Virus record (IMG/VR): IMGVR_UViG_3300017764_000025
Coordinates: 1-35,842 of that record
Reading direction: 5' to 3' (one strand)
Source of the DNA: a virus
DNA: 35,842 bases
The stretch's first letter is position 1, and each line of letters starts with the position of its first letter. This document shows, piece after piece, positions 9,066 to 32,547 of the stretch. The position numbers were made by a program, and so were the translations under genes. The notes beneath the pieces were generated by a model. It was not told the origin of the DNA. It saw only the letters and a list, made by a program, of their open reading frames with translations, and searched no databases.

Positions 9066-9968
9066 TTAATAATTTAAAATTGCTAATTCTTTATGCTTTG
9101 CTTCAATAACAATATCAGGATCTAACCCATAAGTATTAATTTTATTATAAATTAAATCTGAATGAGCTTGTGGTCTGATAGTTTCATCTAATTTCTCTTT
9201 TCTTCTACTCTCTGAGTAATGACAACATTGTTTAATATTTTTAGGCCAGGTAGTTGAAGCCATTTTTAATGCTTCTTCTTCACTTAAACCCCCAGTATTA
9301 AACTTATGGTGGAAATAATCAAATGTAATTGGAATACCAATTTTTTTATAAACCCCCTCAAATAGATCTTTAACAGAGTATTCGTTTGGACTATCATCAT
9401 TTTCGATTACTAGACGTTTTTGAGTGTTTACATTCAACAAACTAAAATTCTCCACAAAACGCGCCAACGTTGATTTCTTATCACCATAAGCACCACCTAC
9501 ATGAATATTAATTTTGTTGTAATTTGAAGGTTTATAACCCATCATATCAAATTGTTCACTGTGTCTATCTAATTCTTTGATAGTTTTAGCTATTACCTTT
9601 GGATTAGGTGAAGCCAAACAATTGAATGGGCCAGGATGCATTGTAAGTCTTTGGTCTGCTTTAAGAGCATAATCACCTATTTCTTCCATTAGTGATTTTA
9701 TCTTATCATAATCTTTTAAATCAGTAAATTCATACTCAGTCATCCAAGGGAATATATTACTAGATATTCTAAATAATTTAATATCTTTTTCTTTATTCCA
9801 TTGAACTATTTTATATAAATCTTCAACATTTTTAAGAGCTAATTCAGATACATAATCCAACCCCTTATCTTCAAATGTTTTTTTACGCATTGTACGGTTT
9901 GTCATTATTTTCTCTTTGCTAAGAGTGAAACAGATACAAGCATAGCCTAAATTTAACCTTTTTGTCAT
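9066..9968 (-). CDS. uvsE: UV damage endonuclease (UvdE/UvsE), 300 aa
   Basis: Opens with LNLGYACICFTLS, the signature N-terminus of the UvdE family, then LYKIVQWNKEKDIKLFRISS (51-70). Metal-binding residues of the TIM-barrel are visible: H111 (TMHPGPF), H156 (INIHVGGAYGDK), E189 (LVIENDD), D217 with H220/H221 (TFDYFHHKF), H250 (CCHYSESR) and H269 (AHSDLI). Length matches the family. The enzyme nicks DNA 5' to UV photoproducts and so starts excision repair without UvrABC. In a phage it protects the genome from sunlight, consistent with a surface-water host. Confidence 0.93.
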   Translation of the reverse strand: MTKRLNLGYACICFTLSKEKIMTNRTMRKKTFEDKGLDYVSELALKNVEDLYKIVQWNKEKDIKLFRISSNIFPWMTEYEFTDLKDYDKIKSLMEEIGDYALKADQRLTMHPGPFNCLASPNPKVIAKTIKELDRHSEQFDMMGYKPSNYNKINIHVGGAYGDKKSTLARFVENFSLLNVNTQKRLVIENDDSPNEYSVKDLFEGVYKKIGIPITFDYFHHKFNTGGLSEEEALKMASTTWPKNIKQCCHYSESRRKEKLDETIRPQAHSDLIYNKINTYGLDPDIVIEAKHKELAILNY

Positions 9969-16549: not shown

Positions 16550-18169
16550 TTAATAAATATTATAAATTTCAAAATCACTTTCTCTAGTAACTTTCCTCAT
16601 AAATAAAGCCCCAGTTTCTCTTATTTTTTCAATTTCCTTAAATGAAATAAAATCATAAGTTTTAGGATAGTTATTCTTATTTCCTTTATGAGAAATATCA
16701 ATCCAATTAGAGAATGTTAAAGTCTTATCCTCCCAATCAATCCCTAACATATTAAGCATCGTAGGATAATAAACCTCATCGGGTGCGAATACATCCTCAA
16801 ATAACTCTGTTTTATCTATCTCTAATAATTTCCCAACAGTATCTCTATTTAAAACCATCCATTGACTTCTCTTCTCAAAATTATCTTTACTTATTTGGGA
16901 TTTATCCTTAATTGTATTATATCTCCCTTCACTATCCATATCTCCCATTATACCCATCCTATTGGATTTACTGGTTAGTAATTCTCTCTTAATTATCTCA
17001 GGTGTATGGATAGGGATACATTTATCAGATAGTAAGATAAATACTTTATTAGATTCATCTTTAAATGCTTCTCTAAATAAGTTATTAGTAGCTCTAACTA
17101 AACTAATACCCCCCCATTCAGTTTCAACTCTATCTTTAATAATATGGGGGTAAAAATAATTACTAACTTCTTTACTTTCTTTAGGGTGCAGGTAAACATT
17201 ATAATTACTTCCCATTTTATTAAAGAATTTCCTCCAAGTATGAGTATTTTCTATATCACCATAAGTTAAAAAACAAAAAGCAATATTTTCATTTTCAAAA
17301 TATGGAGTTATTTTTTCTTTTCTCAAAAATGAAATTAAACTATCTTTTTTCAATGTAGATTCATCTATATTTTTCAAACCACCTTCAGGATAATTTTTAA
17401 TATCATAAATCTCTAAATAATCTTTCTCTTCATTCTCACCTTTAAAAACATAACATATAATTTTATTACCATAATCAGTATAATTATAAAATAATATATT
17501 ACCTTCATGTCCTTCGATGTTAAATAATCTTGCAGGAATGTTAAATATGAATTTATTTTCTCTCTTATATGGAGGTTCCTTGCTGTAACCAAATTTAACA
17601 AAATCCTCATGATATACTTCTTGAATTAATTGAATTAATTCTTTATCCATATGTTGTATACCAAATTCTTTTTCACTAACATTTGTTCGAGTATTTAACT
17701 TAATATCTAAATCATATTCAGACATTAGATTATCAAATTCCTCCTTCAAATTCTCCATTTTTAAAATGTGAGTAGTAGAATTATTATCTAAATATAGATG
17801 TTGAGGAGTATAATGATCACCTCTTGAAATACCATGTTTAGTTGAAGTTGGCTTATCCCAAGCTCTAATTTTTTCTTTTAAATATCTATTAAAGTAATAT
17901 ATTCCTCTTAAAAATGCTTCTTTATCTCTACCAACACCACCCCATTTACAATGAAATTCACTTAAAATCCTCTCATAAGGATTTCTAACCACCATAAACC
18001 AATCATATTTATCTTTTAATTCTTGAGGCTTATCTATAAATATTTCATGCCACCACCCATATTCTTCATGATAACGACCCCAATTTATATTATAATTCTT
18101 ACCTTCATCCTCAATTGAAGTACCACCAGTTTTAGTTATATGAATGAATTTTAATTCTTTTTTACTCAT
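16550..18169 (-). CDS. Sulfotransferase-GT14 glycosyltransferase fusion, 539 aa
   Basis: Residues 1-195 carry the PAPS-binding motifs of carbohydrate sulfotransferases: FIHITKTGGTSIE (8-20; 5'-phosphosulfate loop) and VVRNPYERILSEF (60-72; 3'-phosphate site), ending in VYHEDFVKFGY. A linker of about 100 residues follows. From about 296 to 530 the protein resembles the core-2/branching (GT14) family: FCFLTYGD, VFILLSDKCIPI (377-387), RSQWMVLNR (434-442), FAPDEVYYPTML (461-472) and a late ISHKGN. One polypeptide may thus add a sugar branch and sulfate a glycan, in the cytoplasm since there is no signal peptide. The target (virion glycan or host surface polymer) is unknown. Confidence 0.8.
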   Translation of the reverse strand: MSKKELKFIHITKTGGTSIEDEGKNYNINWGRYHEEYGWWHEIFIDKPQELKDKYDWFMVVRNPYERILSEFHCKWGGVGRDKEAFLRGIYYFNRYLKEKIRAWDKPTSTKHGISRGDHYTPQHLYLDNNSTTHILKMENLKEEFDNLMSEYDLDIKLNTRTNVSEKEFGIQHMDKELIQLIQEVYHEDFVKFGYSKEPPYKRENKFIFNIPARLFNIEGHEGNILFYNYTDYGNKIICYVFKGENEEKDYLEIYDIKNYPEGGLKNIDESTLKKDSLISFLRKEKITPYFENENIAFCFLTYGDIENTHTWRKFFNKMGSNYNVYLHPKESKEVSNYFYPHIIKDRVETEWGGISLVRATNNLFREAFKDESNKVFILLSDKCIPIHTPEIIKRELLTSKSNRMGIMGDMDSEGRYNTIKDKSQISKDNFEKRSQWMVLNRDTVGKLLEIDKTELFEDVFAPDEVYYPTMLNMLGIDWEDKTLTFSNWIDISHKGNKNNYPKTYDFISFKEIEKIRETGALFMRKVTRESDFEIYNIY

Positions 18170-20033: not shown

Positions 20034-20477
20034 CTACGCAGAAGTCGCATCATAGGTATAACCTATTATTTTACGTATCTTACCATTTCTTCTTAATGGG
20101 ACAAAACAACTAGAAAATATTTTATTATTTGATGCTATAAAAGTAAATTTATATGTTTTACCTTCTTCTATAGATGATTTGAGTAATTTTTCTATTCTTT
20201 TTTTATCTTGATTTGAAACATAGCTTACATAATCTTCTCCTATTATGTCTGTTTCTCTCATTAGACCTAACATTTCTACTCCAGCTTTATTCATTCTTAG
20301 TAATTTACCTTCTAGGGAAATTTCATGAATACATAGGGGGAGAGATTGTAGTATAATTTTTGATTCTTCTATTTCTTCAAATACCATACCTCCTACACTA
20401 AATGAAGGAGGACATTTACTATCAAATAATGATTGTACCATTTTTTCTAGCTCACTTAACCTACTTTCCATATTCAT
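20034..20477 (-). CDS. Stand-alone PAS-domain protein, 147 aa
   Basis: Residues 1-20 form a short coiled coil (MESRLSELEKMVQSLF). Residues about 38-145 are a PAS domain: IILQSLPLCIHEIS, GKLLRMNKAGVEMLGL, IIGEDYVSYV, a helix DKKRIEKLLKSSIEEGKTYK, FTFIASNNKIFSSCFVPLRR and KIRKIIGYTYDAT. PAS domains sense ligands, redox state or mediate dimerisation, normally as input to kinases. Here no kinase, cyclase or HTH output is attached. It may intercept a host signalling protein or work with the neighbouring coiled-coil membrane protein (20489-20845); both are inferences. Confidence 0.85.
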   Translation of the reverse strand: MNMESRLSELEKMVQSLFDSKCPPSFSVGGMVFEEIEESKIILQSLPLCIHEISLEGKLLRMNKAGVEMLGLMRETDIIGEDYVSYVSNQDKKRIEKLLKSSIEEGKTYKFTFIASNNKIFSSCFVPLRRNGKIRKIIGYTYDATSA

Positions 20478-25356: not shown

Positions 25357-26559
25357 TTATAAATACACTAAATCATTCTGATATTCATTCATTTGAATTA
25401 TGTGAATTATTAGATTTCCTAACTCAAATTTACCTATTTCTCCATTATCTTTTATAATATCTGGGAGTTGTTGGATTAGTTGGTAGTCTTGTTGGGTGAA
25501 GTTTAAACTATCAATCTCAATTAATATTTCATTATTTTTCTCATTATCATATGGTTTAATTCTTTCATATAAATTAAATGATGTATCTTCCATTTCAATA
25601 TAATCAGATACTCTACCAACCATAAATTGTTCATCACAATAAAGTGTACTACACCATGGTTCAAGTAATTCTAATAGTTGTAGATTACAATTTTTAACTA
25701 TAAAACCAATATCATATTTTGATGGTACAAGTGGCTTCATTAAAGCATCATGTTTGCAAAAATGACCCCACTTACGTAAAAATTCTCTTGTTGATTTATT
25801 ATTTTGTTTTAACCATTCATCTGTTTCTCTATTTTTCATGAATACTTGACCATCAGGATTTCTTTTCGCCCCATCTGCAAATCTTGATCCTCTACAAGTC
25901 ATATGGTAAACAAATCCTTCCCATGTTTGGATAAATTTAATTCCATTTAAATGAAAACGATTAAATATATCTGTGTCTTCTTTTGATTGAGGTGCAAATA
26001 TAGGATCATGTCCTTCTATTTCTTGGAAATCTTTTTTCCAAAAAGCCCAAGGTGCAAATATACCCTCAGTTGTTGCTAGATTAGGTTGATAAAGTTTAAC
26101 ATGTTCTAATAATCCCTCTTCATCAAACTCCTCGGGTTCAATTCCAAAATCTTGTAATACTTTTTCAGGGCCTGGAGGATGTAATGGTGGTTCGATTCTA
26201 GTAAGTGATACTATTGTTTTTTCTTTAAGTTGTTTTTCAATTGCATCTAAAGCTCCAGGACAAAGGTACATATCTGCATGATAAATCATACATACATCAC
26301 TTGTAGCTACTTCATTAACCAAACGATCATATAAAATAGTATGACCTAAACGAGTTGGACCCTCATTTCTAATTGCTTTAAATAATGGGTCTTTTTCCTT
26401 TATTTCTTGACACCATTCCCAAGTATTATCTTTATCACTAAAATCATCTGCTACACAGATTTCAACTTCATGATTACCTTGGTTTTTTCTTATAGCATTA
26501 TAAGACCATTTAAGGTATTTTAGATTATTTCTTGAGGGTTGTATTAAAGATATCTTCAT
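25357..26559 (-). CDS. GT2-family glycosyltransferase, 400 aa
   Basis: GT-A fold: ISLIQPSRNNLKYLKWSYNA at the N-terminus, VEICVADDFSDKDN (32-45) with the nucleotide-binding acidic pair, and MIYHADMYLCPGALD (91-105) with H-A-D in place of DxD. A long C-terminal region (about 290-400) is not part of the core and may bind the acceptor. It transfers a sugar from a nucleotide-sugar donor to an unknown acceptor. It is the most downstream enzyme of the glycan island. Confidence 0.85.
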   Translation of the reverse strand: MKISLIQPSRNNLKYLKWSYNAIRKNQGNHEVEICVADDFSDKDNTWEWCQEIKEKDPLFKAIRNEGPTRLGHTILYDRLVNEVATSDVCMIYHADMYLCPGALDAIEKQLKEKTIVSLTRIEPPLHPPGPEKVLQDFGIEPEEFDEEGLLEHVKLYQPNLATTEGIFAPWAFWKKDFQEIEGHDPIFAPQSKEDTDIFNRFHLNGIKFIQTWEGFVYHMTCRGSRFADGAKRNPDGQVFMKNRETDEWLKQNNKSTREFLRKWGHFCKHDALMKPLVPSKYDIGFIVKNCNLQLLELLEPWCSTLYCDEQFMVGRVSDYIEMEDTSFNLYERIKPYDNEKNNEILIEIDSLNFTQQDYQLIQQLPDIIKDNGEIGKFELGNLIIHIIQMNEYQNDLVYL

Positions 26560-26569
26560 GGTTTATTAT

Positions 26570-27238
26570 TTAAATATAATTATAAGATTGATAATTTTTA
26601 CGTTTATATTTCTTTTGTAATTCTTGGTATTGAGAAGTTTTTAACTCTTTAAAAGATACTCTAGTATATATAAATTCATTTTCAGTTCCCTGTAGACCCA
26701 CTCTAGGATGCTCATCACCTGGGAGCCATCCATCTCTATTTTGTATTCCTAAAATACTACAAATAATATTTTGGATCACTCTAGGTCCAGTAATATCTAT
26801 TACATGATCTACTTTAACGGGAGTATTTCTTTCAATATTTTCTACTACTTTACAAATTACCTGATGGAATATTTTTTGATTAGGGGCTCCTCCTATAAAC
26901 ATATAACTAATATTACCAAACCCAGCATCAAATAAATGAATAGAACCCTGGTCAGGTAAGTTAAGTTGAGTAGGTTCTACATCTAGGTCAAACCAATAAC
27001 CACCATATTTGTTTATATAACATATTCTAAAGAAATCTGCTATGGCTACCCCATTCCTCATTTTAGAAAATGTGGAATAATACTCTGTATCTTTAAAAAA
27101 TGAATCTACATCATCATCTGAAAAATACTTTACTTCATATTCAGGGTTTAATTTTTCCCATTTAGTAAGTATCTTTTGTAGAATTGAATCAGATTTATCA
27201 CAAGTATAGCTGGTAAATATTACTTTTTTAATTGACAT
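26570..27238 (-). CDS. GT32-like glycosyltransferase with DXD motif, 222 aa
   Basis: Matches the sugar-binding DXD family (Gly_transf_sug): KKVIFTSYTCDKSDSILQKI, EYEVKYFSDDDVDSFF (33-48), and IADFFRICYINKYGGYWFDL then DVEP (67-88) with D84-L-D86 as metal-binding DXD. The family uses nucleotide sugars such as GDP-mannose or UDP-galactose. Overlaps the methyltransferase-like gene upstream by 11 nt. Confidence 0.85.
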   Translation of the reverse strand: MSIKKVIFTSYTCDKSDSILQKILTKWEKLNPEYEVKYFSDDDVDSFFKDTEYYSTFSKMRNGVAIADFFRICYINKYGGYWFDLDVEPTQLNLPDQGSIHLFDAGFGNISYMFIGGAPNQKIFHQVICKVVENIERNTPVKVDHVIDITGPRVIQNIICSILGIQNRDGWLPGDEHPRVGLQGTENEFIYTRVSFKELKTSQYQELQKKYKRKNYQSYNYI

Positions 27239-27767
27239 ACTGTTCCTTAGGTTTTAATACTATAAGTGTTTGAAAGCCTGGGTCTTTAATACTAGCAATC
27301 TCTTTATACCAATCAAATACAACATGGTATTGAGGTCTTTGCCAAAAATCATGGATAAAAATTAAAGAGTCTTTGTGTAAATATTTAAGAATATATTCAG
27401 CACACCATCCTCTAGCTCTCCCATCCACAAGTACTTTATCAAATTTTTCAACATCTAATTTATCAACATATTCAATATAGGTTTTAAATTGATGTTTTTG
27501 GGTAGGTAAAGTTCTTGGGGAATCCCAAGGAACTAGATTCATGTTTATATCTTTACCTACTCTAGCTTTAACTCCTTTGAACCATTCTGGGTCATGTTCT
27601 ATTGAGTAATAGTTTTTTACAAAGTTAGGGAAATATAAAGTACTACCCCCACTCCCCCATTCTAACATGGTATCTGTGTAGTATAAATGTTTTAAAATTA
27701 GTAGGATTTCACTATCGTGCATCCAAGGAGTTGATGGTATTTCTTTAGAGTTTTCCATAATATTCAT
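27228..27767 (-). CDS. Rossmann-fold methyltransferase-like protein (DUF579-like), 179 aa
   Basis: Contains MLEWGSGGSTLYFP (34-47; SAM-binding loop), YYSIEHDPEWF (53-63), a VLVDGRARGWCAEYIL segment and IFIHDFWQRPQY. This order resembles the plant glucuronoxylan methyltransferase/IRX15 group and related bacterial proteins acting on polysaccharides. In this context it may methylate a sugar added by the neighbouring enzymes (inference). Two possible starts, 27767 and 27758. Confidence 0.75.
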   Translation of the reverse strand: MNIMENSKEIPSTPWMHDSEILLILKHLYYTDTMLEWGSGGSTLYFPNFVKNYYSIEHDPEWFKGVKARVGKDINMNLVPWDSPRTLPTQKHQFKTYIEYVDKLDVEKFDKVLVDGRARGWCAEYILKYLHKDSLIFIHDFWQRPQYHVVFDWYKEIASIKDPGFQTLIVLKPKEQYVN

Positions 27768-28371
27768 TTTGTTTTACTTGTCTATCAATTGTTTTACCAT
27801 GAATTAAACAAAATACTTCATCTGTAGGTAAACTTGCTAAAGTTTTATACCCAGTTAAAACTTCATGGACTTTATTTTTCCATTTAATTTTACCATTATT
27901 ACGATAGATACGCATTTGGTTATCTGGGAAGTTGATTCTATTTTTACTATCAACTCTCCATCCCCATTTTTGAATATGTTCTTGGGTAATCCCCTCAACA
28001 GTATTAATTCTAGGGACTAAATAAACATCTACATTATTATCATCTAAAATTTGAGGTAAAATTTCAACCATTTCAGGATCAATTATTTCATCTGCATCTA
28101 TTTGATATATAAATTCTTTAGTACAAGCCTTAGTTAATCTATTCTTCCAATCTGCAAAATGATTATTAAAATTATCCTCTACTAATGTGATTTGATTAGC
28201 ACTACTCAGTTTATGTAAGTATGCTACTAATTCAGTAGTTGGTGTATTTTTAGTTAAATCTAATAATACGACAACTTCATCATCCTTACGGATATTTTGT
28301 GTTAAAAACGTTAATAAACGTTGAATCTCAATGAATTCATTACATACTGTAACTGCATAACTTATTGTCAT
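27745..28371 (-). CDS. GT2-family glycosyltransferase, 208 aa
   Basis: Compact GT-A fold: SYAVTVCNEFIEIQRLLTFL, DDEVVVLLDLTKNTPTTELV, and FIYQIDADEIIDPEMVEILP (87-106) with the metal-binding D92-A-D94. The segment KWKNKVHEVLTG matches the W-x-x-x-VHE motif of WaaE/KdtX-type enzymes that add heptose, glucose or similar to LPS cores and to phage-associated glycans. Acceptor unknown. First gene after the SSB-tip protein gene in the direction of transcription. Confidence 0.85.
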   Translation of the reverse strand: MTISYAVTVCNEFIEIQRLLTFLTQNIRKDDEVVVLLDLTKNTPTTELVAYLHKLSSANQITLVEDNFNNHFADWKNRLTKACTKEFIYQIDADEIIDPEMVEILPQILDDNNVDVYLVPRINTVEGITQEHIQKWGWRVDSKNRINFPDNQMRIYRNNGKIKWKNKVHEVLTGYKTLASLPTDEVFCLIHGKTIDRQVKQNEYYGKL

Positions 28372-28381
28372 ATAACTTTAT

Positions 28382-28630
28382 TTAGAATGGTAAATCATCA
28401 TCATCCTCTGTAGTAGTTGATGAGGTAGATTTATTAAAATTTTCATTTAAAAATTCACGTGGGAATAAATTTACTTCCCCATTATAGAATTTAGTAGAAA
28501 CATATCTCCTCTTAATTGGGATATAGTTAGAATGAGCCATAGCTGCTTTTACAACTTCCCCACCTAATTCTTGGCCTGCGGGTTTACCTAGATAATCAAA
28601 TAAACTTAACATTTCTGTATTTTCTGACAT
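28382..28630 (-). CDS. Small protein with SSB-like acidic tip, 82 aa
   Basis: No OB fold fits in 82 residues, yet the C-terminus is a Ser/Thr linker followed by EDDDDLPF, almost the same as the interaction tip of bacterial SSB (DDDIPF). In SSB this tip recruits PriA, RecO, Exo I, topoisomerase III and others. The N-terminal half (LFDYLGKPAGQELGGEVVKA, then IPIKRRYVSTKFYNGEVNLF) is basic and may bind DNA. First gene behind promoter P10. Whether it recruits or competes for host SSB partners is inference. Confidence 0.75.
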   Translation of the reverse strand: MSENTEMLSLFDYLGKPAGQELGGEVVKAAMAHSNYIPIKRRYVSTKFYNGEVNLFPREFLNENFNKSTSSTTTEDDDDLPF

Positions 28631-28661
28631 AACTTTTTTATTTTTAATTTTTATGATGATA

Positions 28662-28693
28662 TGAATATAAAAAGAGCCCTTACGGGCTCCAAA
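28662..28693 (-). promoter_or_regulatory. Phage promoter P10 (TTTG-N20-TATATTCA)
   Basis: TTTG at 28690-28693, 20 nt, TATATTCA at 28662-28669. The spacer contains a hairpin with a U-run that ends in the -7 box. Drives the SSB-tip protein and the genes down to 22047. Confidence 0.85.
28670..28690 (-). terminator. Terminator hairpin inside promoter P10
   Basis: GAGCCC-GTAA-GGGCTC followed by TTTT on the minus strand: a 6-bp GC stem, 4-nt loop and a short U-run. It directly follows the stop of the zinc-ribbon gene at 28694 and shares its bases with the promoter spacer. This is the best case in the window for a combined terminator and promoter. Confidence 0.75.
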
Positions 28694-29155
28694 TTATTCA
28701 GGTAGAACTTCTATAAAACTTAAGGCTTCCATAAAATCTCTTTCCTCAAAATGTTTTATAGTACTCATATCCATTCTCCATTTGTAAAATTTTCCTTTTT
28801 TACCTGGGATTGGAAATTTTTCTTTTTCATCTTCTGCTACAGGGACTGCTTTTACTGCTGCCCACTTCCATTCTTTGGAATTAGCTCCATCAGCAAATAC
28901 CATTCCTTTTTCTGGTAGGTTAATTGTAGTAGGCATCCATATTTTACCATTATCATCCTCACCCATAAGTTCTTTATGGAGGTTTGGTAAACGTTCAATC
29001 TGTTCTTCAAAAAATTCTTCTCCTTTTTGCATTAAAGTATTACTTTGAAAACCACACCCAAAACATTGGTAGGTTTTTACATTTTCATTAACCTCGTTAA
29101 CAAAACAAGCATCACTCCCACAACGAGAGCATACTTCTAATTTATCACTATTCAT
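28694..29155 (-). CDS. Zinc-ribbon protein, 153 aa
   Basis: N-terminal zinc ribbon: C9-S-R-C12 and C31-F-G-C34. The rest includes GKIWMPTTINLPEKGMVFAD, KEWKWAAVKAVPV and the end SFIEVLPE. Similar proteins occur in T4-like cyanophages near replication genes, with no known role. It is the last gene of the long unit that begins at promoter P11. Confidence 0.8.
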   Translation of the reverse strand: MNSDKLEVCSRCGSDACFVNEVNENVKTYQCFGCGFQSNTLMQKGEEFFEEQIERLPNLHKELMGEDDNGKIWMPTTINLPEKGMVFADGANSKEWKWAAVKAVPVAEDEKEKFPIPGKKGKFYKWRMDMSTIKHFEERDFMEALSFIEVLPE

Positions 29156-29795
29156 TTGTTTCTAATTTTTTTGTTGCTACTATTTGGTATCCTTTATAAT
29201 TTATATCATATAAATCCTTATACATCTCAAAAAACATCAATATTCCTAATTCAGGAGAATTAATAGGATTAGGTTGGTTTGGATCTTTCCACCCAAAATC
29301 ATCAAATATTAATAAACCTCCAGGATTCAACATTTTATGGGAATAATAAGCATCATTAAGAGTATCATCTGATCTATGTGAGGCATCTATATAAATAAAA
29401 TCATATTTATTTCCTTTTTCTTCTAATTGGGGTAATAAAAAACGAGAATTGCCTTTATTGATATTGAAATTAATATTAGGGTAAAAAGAAATATTATGAG
29501 TGAAATTATTATAAATAAAATTTTTATCTTCTTTTAAAATTTGGGAAGTTCTTCCCATCCCTTCTTCTTCTAGGGTACCTCCAAATGTATCTACAATATA
29601 ATAATTAGTATCTTTTTCTAAATATTTACCACATAAAAAACTTGTTGCCCTTCCTTCATAACATCCTATTTCTAAGATATTTTTAATGGATGAGGGGGGT
29701 TTGAGTTTAGTAAATACTTCATCCCATAGAGGAATCATCCCATCAAACCAATTTTCAGTAAATTTTTGGTTGGGGTTATATGTAAAATTACTCAT
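29148..29795 (-). CDS. Class I SAM methyltransferase (Methyltransf_24 type), 215 aa
   Basis: Motif I LEIGCYEGRAT (41-51), acidic end of beta2 in YIVDTFGG (66-73), YDFIYIDASHRSDDTLNDAY (131-150) and MLNPGGLLIFDDFGW (155-169) define a complete Rossmann methyltransferase of the Methyltransf_24/CmcI group, which often methylates hydroxyls of sugars and antibiotics. In the glycan island, sugar O-methylation is likely (inference). The C-terminus KKLETNE is identical to that of the neighbouring glycosyltransferase. Confidence 0.85.
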   Translation of the reverse strand: MSNFTYNPNQKFTENWFDGMIPLWDEVFTKLKPPSSIKNILEIGCYEGRATSFLCGKYLEKDTNYYIVDTFGGTLEEEGMGRTSQILKEDKNFIYNNFTHNISFYPNINFNINKGNSRFLLPQLEEKGNKYDFIYIDASHRSDDTLNDAYYSHKMLNPGGLLIFDDFGWKDPNQPNPINSPELGILMFFEMYKDLYDINYKGYQIVATKKLETNE

Positions 29796-31113
29796 TTGTC
29801 TCTAATTTTTTAAGTTTAGGTAATTCTAATTTTTTAAGTTTAGGTAACTTTAATTCTATTTGTTTAGCTACTTCAGTAAAATAATTAGTGATTATACCTT
29901 CCAATTGATCAACCATATTATCAAAGCTGAATTTAGACCTACTATGGTATCCTTGACGTTTACCTTTTATCTTATAATCTTTATATTTTTCTTTTACTTC
30001 AATTAAAGAATGACCTATATGATTTAAATCAGGACTAAACCACTGAGAACCTTCAATTAATATATCTTTTACTTGGGCTGAAGGGTGGATATCTTTTAAT
30101 TCTCCCCTTAATAAAGTAGTAAAGTTTGGTGATAAGAAATCCATATGACCTGACCATCCTGTAGTAATAATTGGTTTATTTGTTAAACTAAATTCTAATA
30201 ATGGTCTGCCAAATCCTTCCCCTTTAGTTAAGCTAACCATAGCTTTAACTTTTGGATGGTTGTATATTTCATTTACTTCATTATCTGTAAAATCTCCATG
30301 TAATAGATATACTTTAGGTAATTTACTAGATGGGCAAGATTTTTTAATTGAATCTATTTTTCTTTGAATCTCTCTTCTATCCATATAACAACTTCCAGCT
30401 CCACTTGTTTTTAAGATTAATGCTGGTTGGTTAGATTTATTTTTAAAGGTTTCATAGAATGCTTTAACTAATAGACCTACATTCTTTCTATCCTCACCTA
30501 AATCACCTTGCATCCAGTGACCTAAATATAGATAAGCAAAACTTTCATTAATAGAGTCTAATGAATTAAATAATTCAGTATTTTCAAATTCAGATTTTGT
30601 TTCTAGAACTTTATAAGTATCTAAATCAACTCCTTCCATCAATACGTGGATTGGCTTTTCTAATTTTAAAGCCCCAACAATATTTCCTTGTTGATCTTGC
30701 TTATTATATTGAACATCTTGGAATATTTTTTTAGAATGTTCAGATGAAACTAATACTAAATCCATTCTATTACATCCTTCAATCCATTGAGGGGCACAGG
30801 CAGTTGTTTCAATTCCTGCTGTTAAAATAATATTAAATTTTCCTACAGCTTGTGATTCATTTGGAACTGTAATTTGCATCCAATAATCAGGTTGTTCTGT
30901 TAATTGTCCTAAATGGAGATATTCTTTTAAGAACCCCCATTCTTCTTTATGGTCATCAATGAATCCTTGAGGTGTAGCACCCCAACGCTGTGGGATGATT
31001 TTTACATCATATTTATCCATTTGGATAAGGGCTTTAACAACATCTCTACTACGACTTCCATAACCTGCATAACAGTCTATAGGGCAACTTATATAAAATG
31101 TATTTTTACTCAT
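29788..31113 (-). CDS. GT4-family glycosyltransferase, 441 aa
   Basis: GT-B fold. N-terminal domain with SCPIDCYAGYGSRSRDVVKA (9-28); C-terminal donor domain with YLYLGHW, EDRKNVGLLVKAF (207-219), VYLLHGDFTDNEVNEIY and KGEGFGRPLLEFS (297-309), the E-x7-E nucleotide-sugar motif. A retaining transferase that probably extends a surface or virion glycan. The last residues are a tandem repeat of LPKLKKLE (about 424-438), which may be recent and is encoded by a directly repeated DNA segment. Confidence 0.88.
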   Translation of the reverse strand: MSKNTFYISCPIDCYAGYGSRSRDVVKALIQMDKYDVKIIPQRWGATPQGFIDDHKEEWGFLKEYLHLGQLTEQPDYWMQITVPNESQAVGKFNIILTAGIETTACAPQWIEGCNRMDLVLVSSEHSKKIFQDVQYNKQDQQGNIVGALKLEKPIHVLMEGVDLDTYKVLETKSEFENTELFNSLDSINESFAYLYLGHWMQGDLGEDRKNVGLLVKAFYETFKNKSNQPALILKTSGAGSCYMDRREIQRKIDSIKKSCPSSKLPKVYLLHGDFTDNEVNEIYNHPKVKAMVSLTKGEGFGRPLLEFSLTNKPIITTGWSGHMDFLSPNFTTLLRGELKDIHPSAQVKDILIEGSQWFSPDLNHIGHSLIEVKEKYKDYKIKGKRQGYHSRSKFSFDNMVDQLEGIITNYFTEVAKQIELKLPKLKKLELPKLKKLETNE

Positions 31114-31122
31114 ATTTTTATT

Positions 31123-32547
31123 TTAATATTTTAAACTATGTTCTAATTTTCTAGGTTGGAAATCATCATCGGATAAAAATTCAAACTTTTCTCTAGGTTG
31201 CCAAGTTGAAAATAACTCTTCCATACCTTCAATTATATTTTCTCCCATTTTTTCTGCTGTAAATCCAGCTTCATCACTTGTAGCCCATTTATGACCTTCT
31301 AAACCAATTTCTTTTCTTTCTTCAGAAGACATTTTGTATAGGTTATAAATTTGTTCTGCTGCATCCTCAGCACTACATCTATCATCAAAAATATATGGAG
31401 TTGGAACTGATCCTTGGATTGAGATATTTGTTGGGAATACTGGTAGAGCCCACCTTCCATGTTTTTTAAATGTACCTCTATGATTTGATGGTATTTCAGG
31501 AGAGGGTGTAAACCATTTTCCTTCATTGTCTACAAATCTCATTTGATCTTGCATTCCACCTGTTGTGTTGGCTATGATTGGAGTACCGGTAAGTAGAGAT
31601 TCGGTTAGAGCTAATCCCCACCCTTCATTTGAAGTTAATAATATAGTACCATCTGCACTATTATACAAATAACTCATTTGTTCCGTAGATAATTTATTAT
31701 TTGAAAAAACTATACTATCTTCATCTTCCCCAAATAGGTATTCTGTAATAGCAGTCAAATCAGTACCATTTTCATCTATAGGTTGAGTATGTAAAACAAA
31801 TCTAACTTCGTTTCTTTTATTCTTAGGTAATTTATCTAAGAATAACTTCCAAGCAAGTAATGTATCTGGGATTTGTTTTCTTCTAATATTTCTAGAGTTA
31901 AATAATAATACGAAATCTTTATCTTCTCTAATATATTTCTTAAACTTAGTGAATTCTTCTACTTCATCTTTAATAGGTTTAAAGATTGAAGTATCTAACC
32001 CATGAGGGACATATTTAATGACTTTGGACTTAACTTTATCACCCAAAACAATTTTATTAATATTAACTGTTTGTTTTGAAATACCAAATAAAGCATCACA
32101 AGACTCATAATATTCTCTATTATATGCAGGTGCTGGATAATCATCCCATATGTTTAAATAAGCTATTGGGATATCTTTTCTAATTTCATTTTCCATTTGA
32201 AATAACCAAGTAAAATATCTTGGATCTGTAATTAAGAAAATAGCATCGATATTTTCACTCTTAACTACTTGTCTAAGTAAATCAGGATTCCCATAACCAT
32301 CTGTTGGGTATAACATAACACTAGCATCTTCAACCCCTGCTTTATCTGCAGTGTCTTTTGATAAATCTAATCTCTTTCCTTTTTCAGGATGTTTTATTGC
32401 ACCTGCTAATTGAACCCAATTGAATTTATGGCATGTATTTAAAACCATCTCACGTCCAATTTGAGCTACCCCACTATGAACTCTAATATCGTCTGTTAGA
32501 AGAAGAATATTTTTTCTATCTTCTTTTTTGATATAACCTTCCTTCAT
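31123..32547 (-). CDS. GT4-family glycosyltransferase, 474 aa
   Basis: GT-B fold. N-terminal NILLLTDDIRVHSGVAQIGR (13-32), IAYLNIWDDYPAP, YVPHGLDTSIFKPI (179-192), LLFNSRNIRRKQIPDTLLAW (214-233) and the donor motif NEGWGLALTESL (307-318), followed by GTPIIANTTGGMQDQ. These are the hallmarks of family 4 retaining glycosyltransferases. It is the first enzyme of the glycan island, directly downstream of the ribbon-helix-helix gene. Confidence 0.9.
   Translation of the reverse strand: MKEGYIKKEDRKNILLLTDDIRVHSGVAQIGREMVLNTCHKFNWVQLAGAIKHPEKGKRLDLSKDTADKAGVEDASVMLYPTDGYGNPDLLRQVVKSENIDAIFLITDPRYFTWLFQMENEIRKDIPIAYLNIWDDYPAPAYNREYYESCDALFGISKQTVNINKIVLGDKVKSKVIKYVPHGLDTSIFKPIKDEVEEFTKFKKYIREDKDFVLLFNSRNIRRKQIPDTLLAWKLFLDKLPKNKRNEVRFVLHTQPIDENGTDLTAITEYLFGEDEDSIVFSNNKLSTEQMSYLYNSADGTILLTSNEGWGLALTESLLTGTPIIANTTGGMQDQMRFVDNEGKWFTPSPEIPSNHRGTFKKHGRWALPVFPTNISIQGSVPTPYIFDDRCSAEDAAEQIYNLYKMSSEERKEIGLEGHKWATSDEAGFTAEKMGENIIEGMEELFSTWQPREKFEFLSDDDFQPRKLEHSLKY

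Follow-up and report, generated by a model that had tools for sequence, protein, structure and literature searches.

A fused sulfotransferase and GT14 glycosyltransferase encoded by a T4-like phage fragment, with a probable role in glycan modification

The window, i.e. the whole stretch of DNA analyzed here, is a 35842-base virus record with about 28% GC. It contains T4-type clamp-loader genes, a head maturation protease and an exonuclease, and we infer that it is a fragment of a T4-like phage, presumably marine, as judged from its relatives and from the nearest named marine and cyanobacterial phage records. The clamp loader is approximately 68-74% identical to those of at least 80 IMG/VR records and, among the matches listed, at most about 38% identical to those of isolate phages. 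Annotation and synteny delimit an island of glycosyltransferase and methyltransferase genes (25357..32547, minus strand), which adjoins the exonuclease and clamp-loader genes and codes for two GT4-type and two GT2 enzymes, a DXD-sugar glycosyltransferase and methyltransferases. The island is partly syntenic with those of two related loci, L161 and L162, two large glycosyltransferases being 56-64% identical. The L161 and L162 islands each carry a stand-alone sulfotransferase of the phrog_3347 family, located in L162 near a nucleotide-sugar epimerase. The island of the window has no stand-alone sulfotransferase, and the fusion gene described below lies about 7 kb away. Two other genes of the window, both on the minus strand, deserve mention in their own right: one (20034-20477) encodes a PAS-fold protein of 147 aa (PF08448, E 4e-8), which is unusual in a phage, the other (9066-9968) a protein that resembles UV-damage endonucleases (phrog_8420) and has 42% identity to its counterpart in a 642-kb uncultured phage.

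The fusion gene, P0001, occupies positions 16550..18169 of the minus strand, starts with ATG and encodes 539 amino acids with no internal stop. The original prediction, which gave no strand, had described a single polypeptide joining a sulfotransferase to a GT14 glycosyltransferase, and the ORF call, Pfam and PHROGs bear this out: both halves are assigned by Pfam within one uninterrupted frame. All motifs quoted in the prediction are present, namely KTGGTSIE (residues 13-20), VVRNPYERILSEF (60-72), LLSDKCIPI (379-387), RSQWMVLNR (434-442) and PDE (463-465). In the Pfam search, Sulfotransfer_2 and Branch were matched, each far over its curated Pfam cut-off, so that chance is not the explanation of the family matches. 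Neither Pfam nor PHROGs placed either half in an unrelated family, and the predicted catalytic and cofactor residues are retained in the alignments of both. The whole protein found no match in NCBIfam or in the phage collection; as a sole query it found none among PDB sequences either, where profiles were required. The halves are connected by a linker of about 95 residues (198-292; 17294..17578, minus strand), for which Pfam indicated no family and the IMG/VR scan no relative. The sequence shows neither an evident signal nor a membrane anchor, and its first residues already belong to the first sulfotransferase strand. GC and GC3 values are 0.27/0.16 and 0.28/0.21 for the two halves, low as in the rest of the window, and the neighbours of P0001 are phage genes on the same strand; thus no compositional sign of chimeric assembly was seen.

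The sulfotransferase domain comprises residues 1-197 (17579..18169, minus strand) and was delimited by Pfam, PHROG, alignment and fold comparison. Sulfotransfer_2 (PF03567) is matched over residues 33-196 with 39.7 bits (E 7.8e-10; gathering cut-off 22 bits), and phrog_3347, "Galactose-3-O-sulfotransferase", over residues 3-197 with E 3.4e-14, covering profile positions 8-217 of 219. Its nearest relatives are the sulfotransferase genes of the L161 and L162 islands (30% and 27% identity, E 1e-10). When 16 sulfotransferases are aligned, three residues are invariant: K13, in the predicted 5'-phosphosulfate-binding loop TKTGGTS (residues 12-18; 18116..18136, minus strand), and R62 and S70, in the predicted 3'-phosphate-binding motif VVRNPYERILS (residues 60-70; 17960..17992, minus strand). 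By family and by these retained cofactor residues, this half is classified as a PAPS sulfotransferase. A profile search of PDB sequences ranks 6-O and 2-O heparan sulfate sulfotransferases first.

The GT14 "Branch" domain, delimited by Pfam, Foldseek and Z scores, comprises residues 293-539 (16553..17293, minus strand). Branch (PF02485) is matched over residues 296-513 with 114.4 bits (E 8.3e-33; gathering cut-off 23.4 bits). A joint alignment had apparently mixed GT14 with sulfotransferase rows and was replaced by separate ones. Against 15 bacterial GT14 proteins the invariant residues are W352, S381, S435, W437, P463-D464-E465, T470, R525 and K526. S381 lies in the LLSDKCIPI motif (residues 379-387; 17009..17035, minus strand), and the PDE motif (residues 463-465; 16775..16783, minus strand) supplies the putative catalytic Glu465. 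Arg525-Lys526 (16592..16597, minus strand) are putative diphosphate contacts replacing a metal; this role and that of Glu465 are predicted by analogy with the core 2 beta-1,6-GlcNAc transferase C2GnT-L.

Two AlphaFold2 models were computed, each with relatives of one half, so that they carry no information on domain arrangement; their mean pLDDT values of 51 and 56 indicate modest confidence. The outcome of this structure prediction, also proposed originally, differs between the halves. The GT14 half strongly resembles C2GnT-L (Z 20.1, rmsd 5.4, 241 aligned residues; Foldseek E 7e-9) and xylosyltransferase 1 (XT1; Z 19.3, rmsd 3.4, 231 aligned), the next family following at Z 15.9, and is thus modelled as a GT-A fold like these two enzymes. 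For the sulfotransferase half the resemblance is middling: heparan sulfate 3-O, 2-O and 6-O sulfotransferases are among the best fold matches of a low-confidence model (Z 6-7.7), the 3-O enzyme giving Z 7.7 and rmsd 5.0 over 156 aligned residues.

The prediction had also held that no phage enzyme with this pair of domains was known, and our searches agree with it. Annotated phages gave no GT14 match of significance. For the sulfotransferase they gave weak matches, in phages of Synechococcus and Pelagibacter, to genes annotated there as sulfotransferases. Among 50 virus records (49 related through their clamp loaders, plus the L001 virus), Sulfotransfer_2 is present in six and GT14 in none, the latter being weak evidence of absence as most records are fragments. 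The L001 record itself has many sulfotransferases interspersed with glycosyltransferase genes. Scans of IMG/VR with the single protein, the alignments, the linker and a PDE-x-YYPT DNA pattern returned no second fusion, only sulfotransferases from one virus record, and none of the nine loci fitting the DNA pattern had GT14; such scans depend on short conserved peptides, which distant copies can escape. The fusion is likewise absent from 395 Bacteroidota genomes, and literature searches found no described sulfotransferase-GT14 fusion.

The same two families are found side by side in Rhodobacterales. On a Pseudorhodobacter plasmid (L097:1351-3892) a sulfotransferase gene and a GT14 gene are adjacent and point away from each other, and 38 of 48 loci fetched by GT14 alone show this divergent Sulfotransfer_2/GT14 arrangement. 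In an evenly drawn sample of 61 Rhodobacterales genomes GT14 is present in 60, and in all 60 one GT14 gene has a strong Sulfotransfer_2 gene as its divergent neighbour, no more than a few hundred bases away, as scored by matching coordinates by eye. The order may descend from a single event and then represents one long conservation, not 60 independent observations. The pair GT14 proteins that were examined (L097, L103, L128) bear a C-terminal DUF5928 domain, of which no mention was found in the literature searched. One of these loci, L128, belongs to a contig whose title reads Oceanobacillus sp. HTM 045 and has the Rhodobacterales-type sulfotransferase/GT14-DUF5928 pair; the assembly is perhaps mislabelled or contaminated. 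The adjacency supports functional coupling of sulfotransferase and GT14 activities. The Branch score of the phage GT14 half (114 bits) is higher than that of any sampled Rhodobacterales match (at most 92 bits), a hint that this half may come from another source.

We propose that P0001 is probably a soluble bifunctional phage enzyme that adds both a sugar and a sulfate group, the latter from host PAPS, to a phage-directed glycan of the surface or virion. Made during infection, it would reside in the cytoplasm, as suggested by a chain that begins with the first sulfotransferase strand and shows neither signal nor anchor. Its GT14 module, with a predicted metal-independent GT-A fold, would take a sugar from a nucleotide-sugar and attach it to an acceptor, either glycan or protein; the sulfotransferase at the N-terminus would add sulfate from PAPS to the same glycan. 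No PAPS-making gene was recognised within the window, so the supply of PAPS would depend on the host or on another part of the phage genome. P0001 may cooperate with the glycosyltransferase island in assembling or capping a sulfated glycan at the surface of the virion or the infected cell; the order of the steps, the identity of the sugar and the final target are likewise conjectural. Alignments and models indicate both domain families with the predicted cofactor and catalytic residues kept, and gene context supports the coupling of the two activities and a glycan as their substrate. Given that the two families adjoin each other across Rhodobacterales and share one chain in the phage, gene-fusion reasoning makes it very likely that they act on one product. 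Both GT14 enzymes and carbohydrate sulfotransferases contribute to the synthesis of sulfated or charged glycans in animals, plants and, as proposed in a paper on Chondrus, red algae (PMC7359372), and hence we read P0001 as adding a sugar and sulfate to a glycan. The prediction that the fusion couples glycan branching to sulfation is thus supported as regards the coupling; branching itself gains no support. "Branch" is only a family name, and we rejected the view that branching by the GT14 half is proven, since the family also includes xylosyl- and glucuronosyltransferases (PMC7359372). The further suggestions of the prediction, a sulfated glycan carried by the virion and mimicry of algal polysaccharides, likewise gain no support from our evidence.

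Several other explanations of P0001 have to be considered. It is unlikely, though it deserves serious thought, that only one module is active, P0001 being a GT14 enzyme whose sulfotransferase has worn down to a binding module, or the reverse. The sulfotransferase half has no close kin and scores 39.7 bits with Sulfotransfer_2 against 98-136 bits for the Rhodobacterales pair members, and such segments do decay, as in a fused sulfotransferase of another marine virus that has lost the 5' PAPS loop; however, P0001 retains K13, R62 and S70, and its PHROG match spans almost the full length of the sulfotransferase profile (8-217 of 219). That the fusion is an artefact of assembly or frame which brought two separate genes together in one contig seems very improbable: it is known from one copy only, but 539 codons without a stop, the similar composition of halves and window, and an in-frame linker of 95 residues instead of an abrupt junction all speak against it.

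Another explanation, which we regard as improbable, concerns the target: P0001 might act on phage DNA, giving hypermodified bases with sugar and sulfate, and not on a surface glycan. According to one paper, nucleotide modification based on glycosyltransferases and sulfotransferases has been reported for phages (PMC10829341), and the island adjoins exonuclease and clamp-loader genes. Yet none of approximately 40 scanned proteins of the window, itself a fragment outside which such genes could lie, was recognised as a base hydroxylase, a thymidylate-synthase-like enzyme or another base modifier, and the matching L162 island has a nucleotide-sugar epimerase. GT14 enzymes and sulfotransferases of the type found in P0001 have glycans and proteins as their known substrates. 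DNA is thus a less likely site of the glycan than the virion or the infected cell.

The preferred reading, a bifunctional enzyme acting on a glycan, can be extended. A single-chain enzyme might extend or branch and also sulfate one glycan, giving a sulfated coat on the virion or infected cell, with a GT14 half derived from outside the sampled bacteria and with the pairing revealing the function of the Rhodobacterales genes; this wider picture is speculative, and we would put it forward only tentatively. The fusion and the Rhodobacterales pair do lead to a testable substrate hypothesis, a glycan receiving both a GT14-linked sugar and sulfate. If correct, it would identify some marine phages as producers of sulfated glycans and suggest what a near-universal, unnamed gene pair does in Rhodobacterales.

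Each half of P0001 has relatives in known systems. C2GnT-L and XT1 share fold and family with the GT14 half; they are eukaryotic, with 17-20% identity to P0001 over the structural alignment, and we know of no sulfotransferase fusion of either. The nearest solved structures to the sulfotransferase half, heparan sulfate 6-O-, 2-O- and 3-O-sulfotransferases, are also eukaryotic, with approximately 13-16% identity. The stand-alone phrog_3347 sulfotransferases of cyanophage ACG-2014f, Pelagibacter phage Mosig and the L161/L162 relatives belong to the same family and to glycosyltransferase islands of marine T4-like phages but, unlike P0001, are unfused proteins of about 200 aa. The Rhodobacterales pair tightly links the same two Pfam families, yet as two separate divergent genes and not as one fused ORF; its GT14 proteins bear DUF5928, for which P0001 has no Pfam match, and are approximately 22-27% identical to the phage GT14 half. 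A protein of 954 aa in virus record G048, the record to which L001 belongs (L160:13370-16234, minus strand), resembles P0001 in that a sulfotransferase-like segment is fused to glycosyltransferases; it differs in that its sulfotransferase is partial, without the 5' PAPS loop, and in its domain order of GT2, sulfotransferase, DXD sugar transferase and GT2, with no GT14. The record, 167 kb long, has several more sulfotransferases. In view of this protein, viral fusions of sulfotransferase and glycosyltransferase are not unique as a kind, and the novelty of P0001, of which one copy has been seen, lies in how it combines two known enzyme families.
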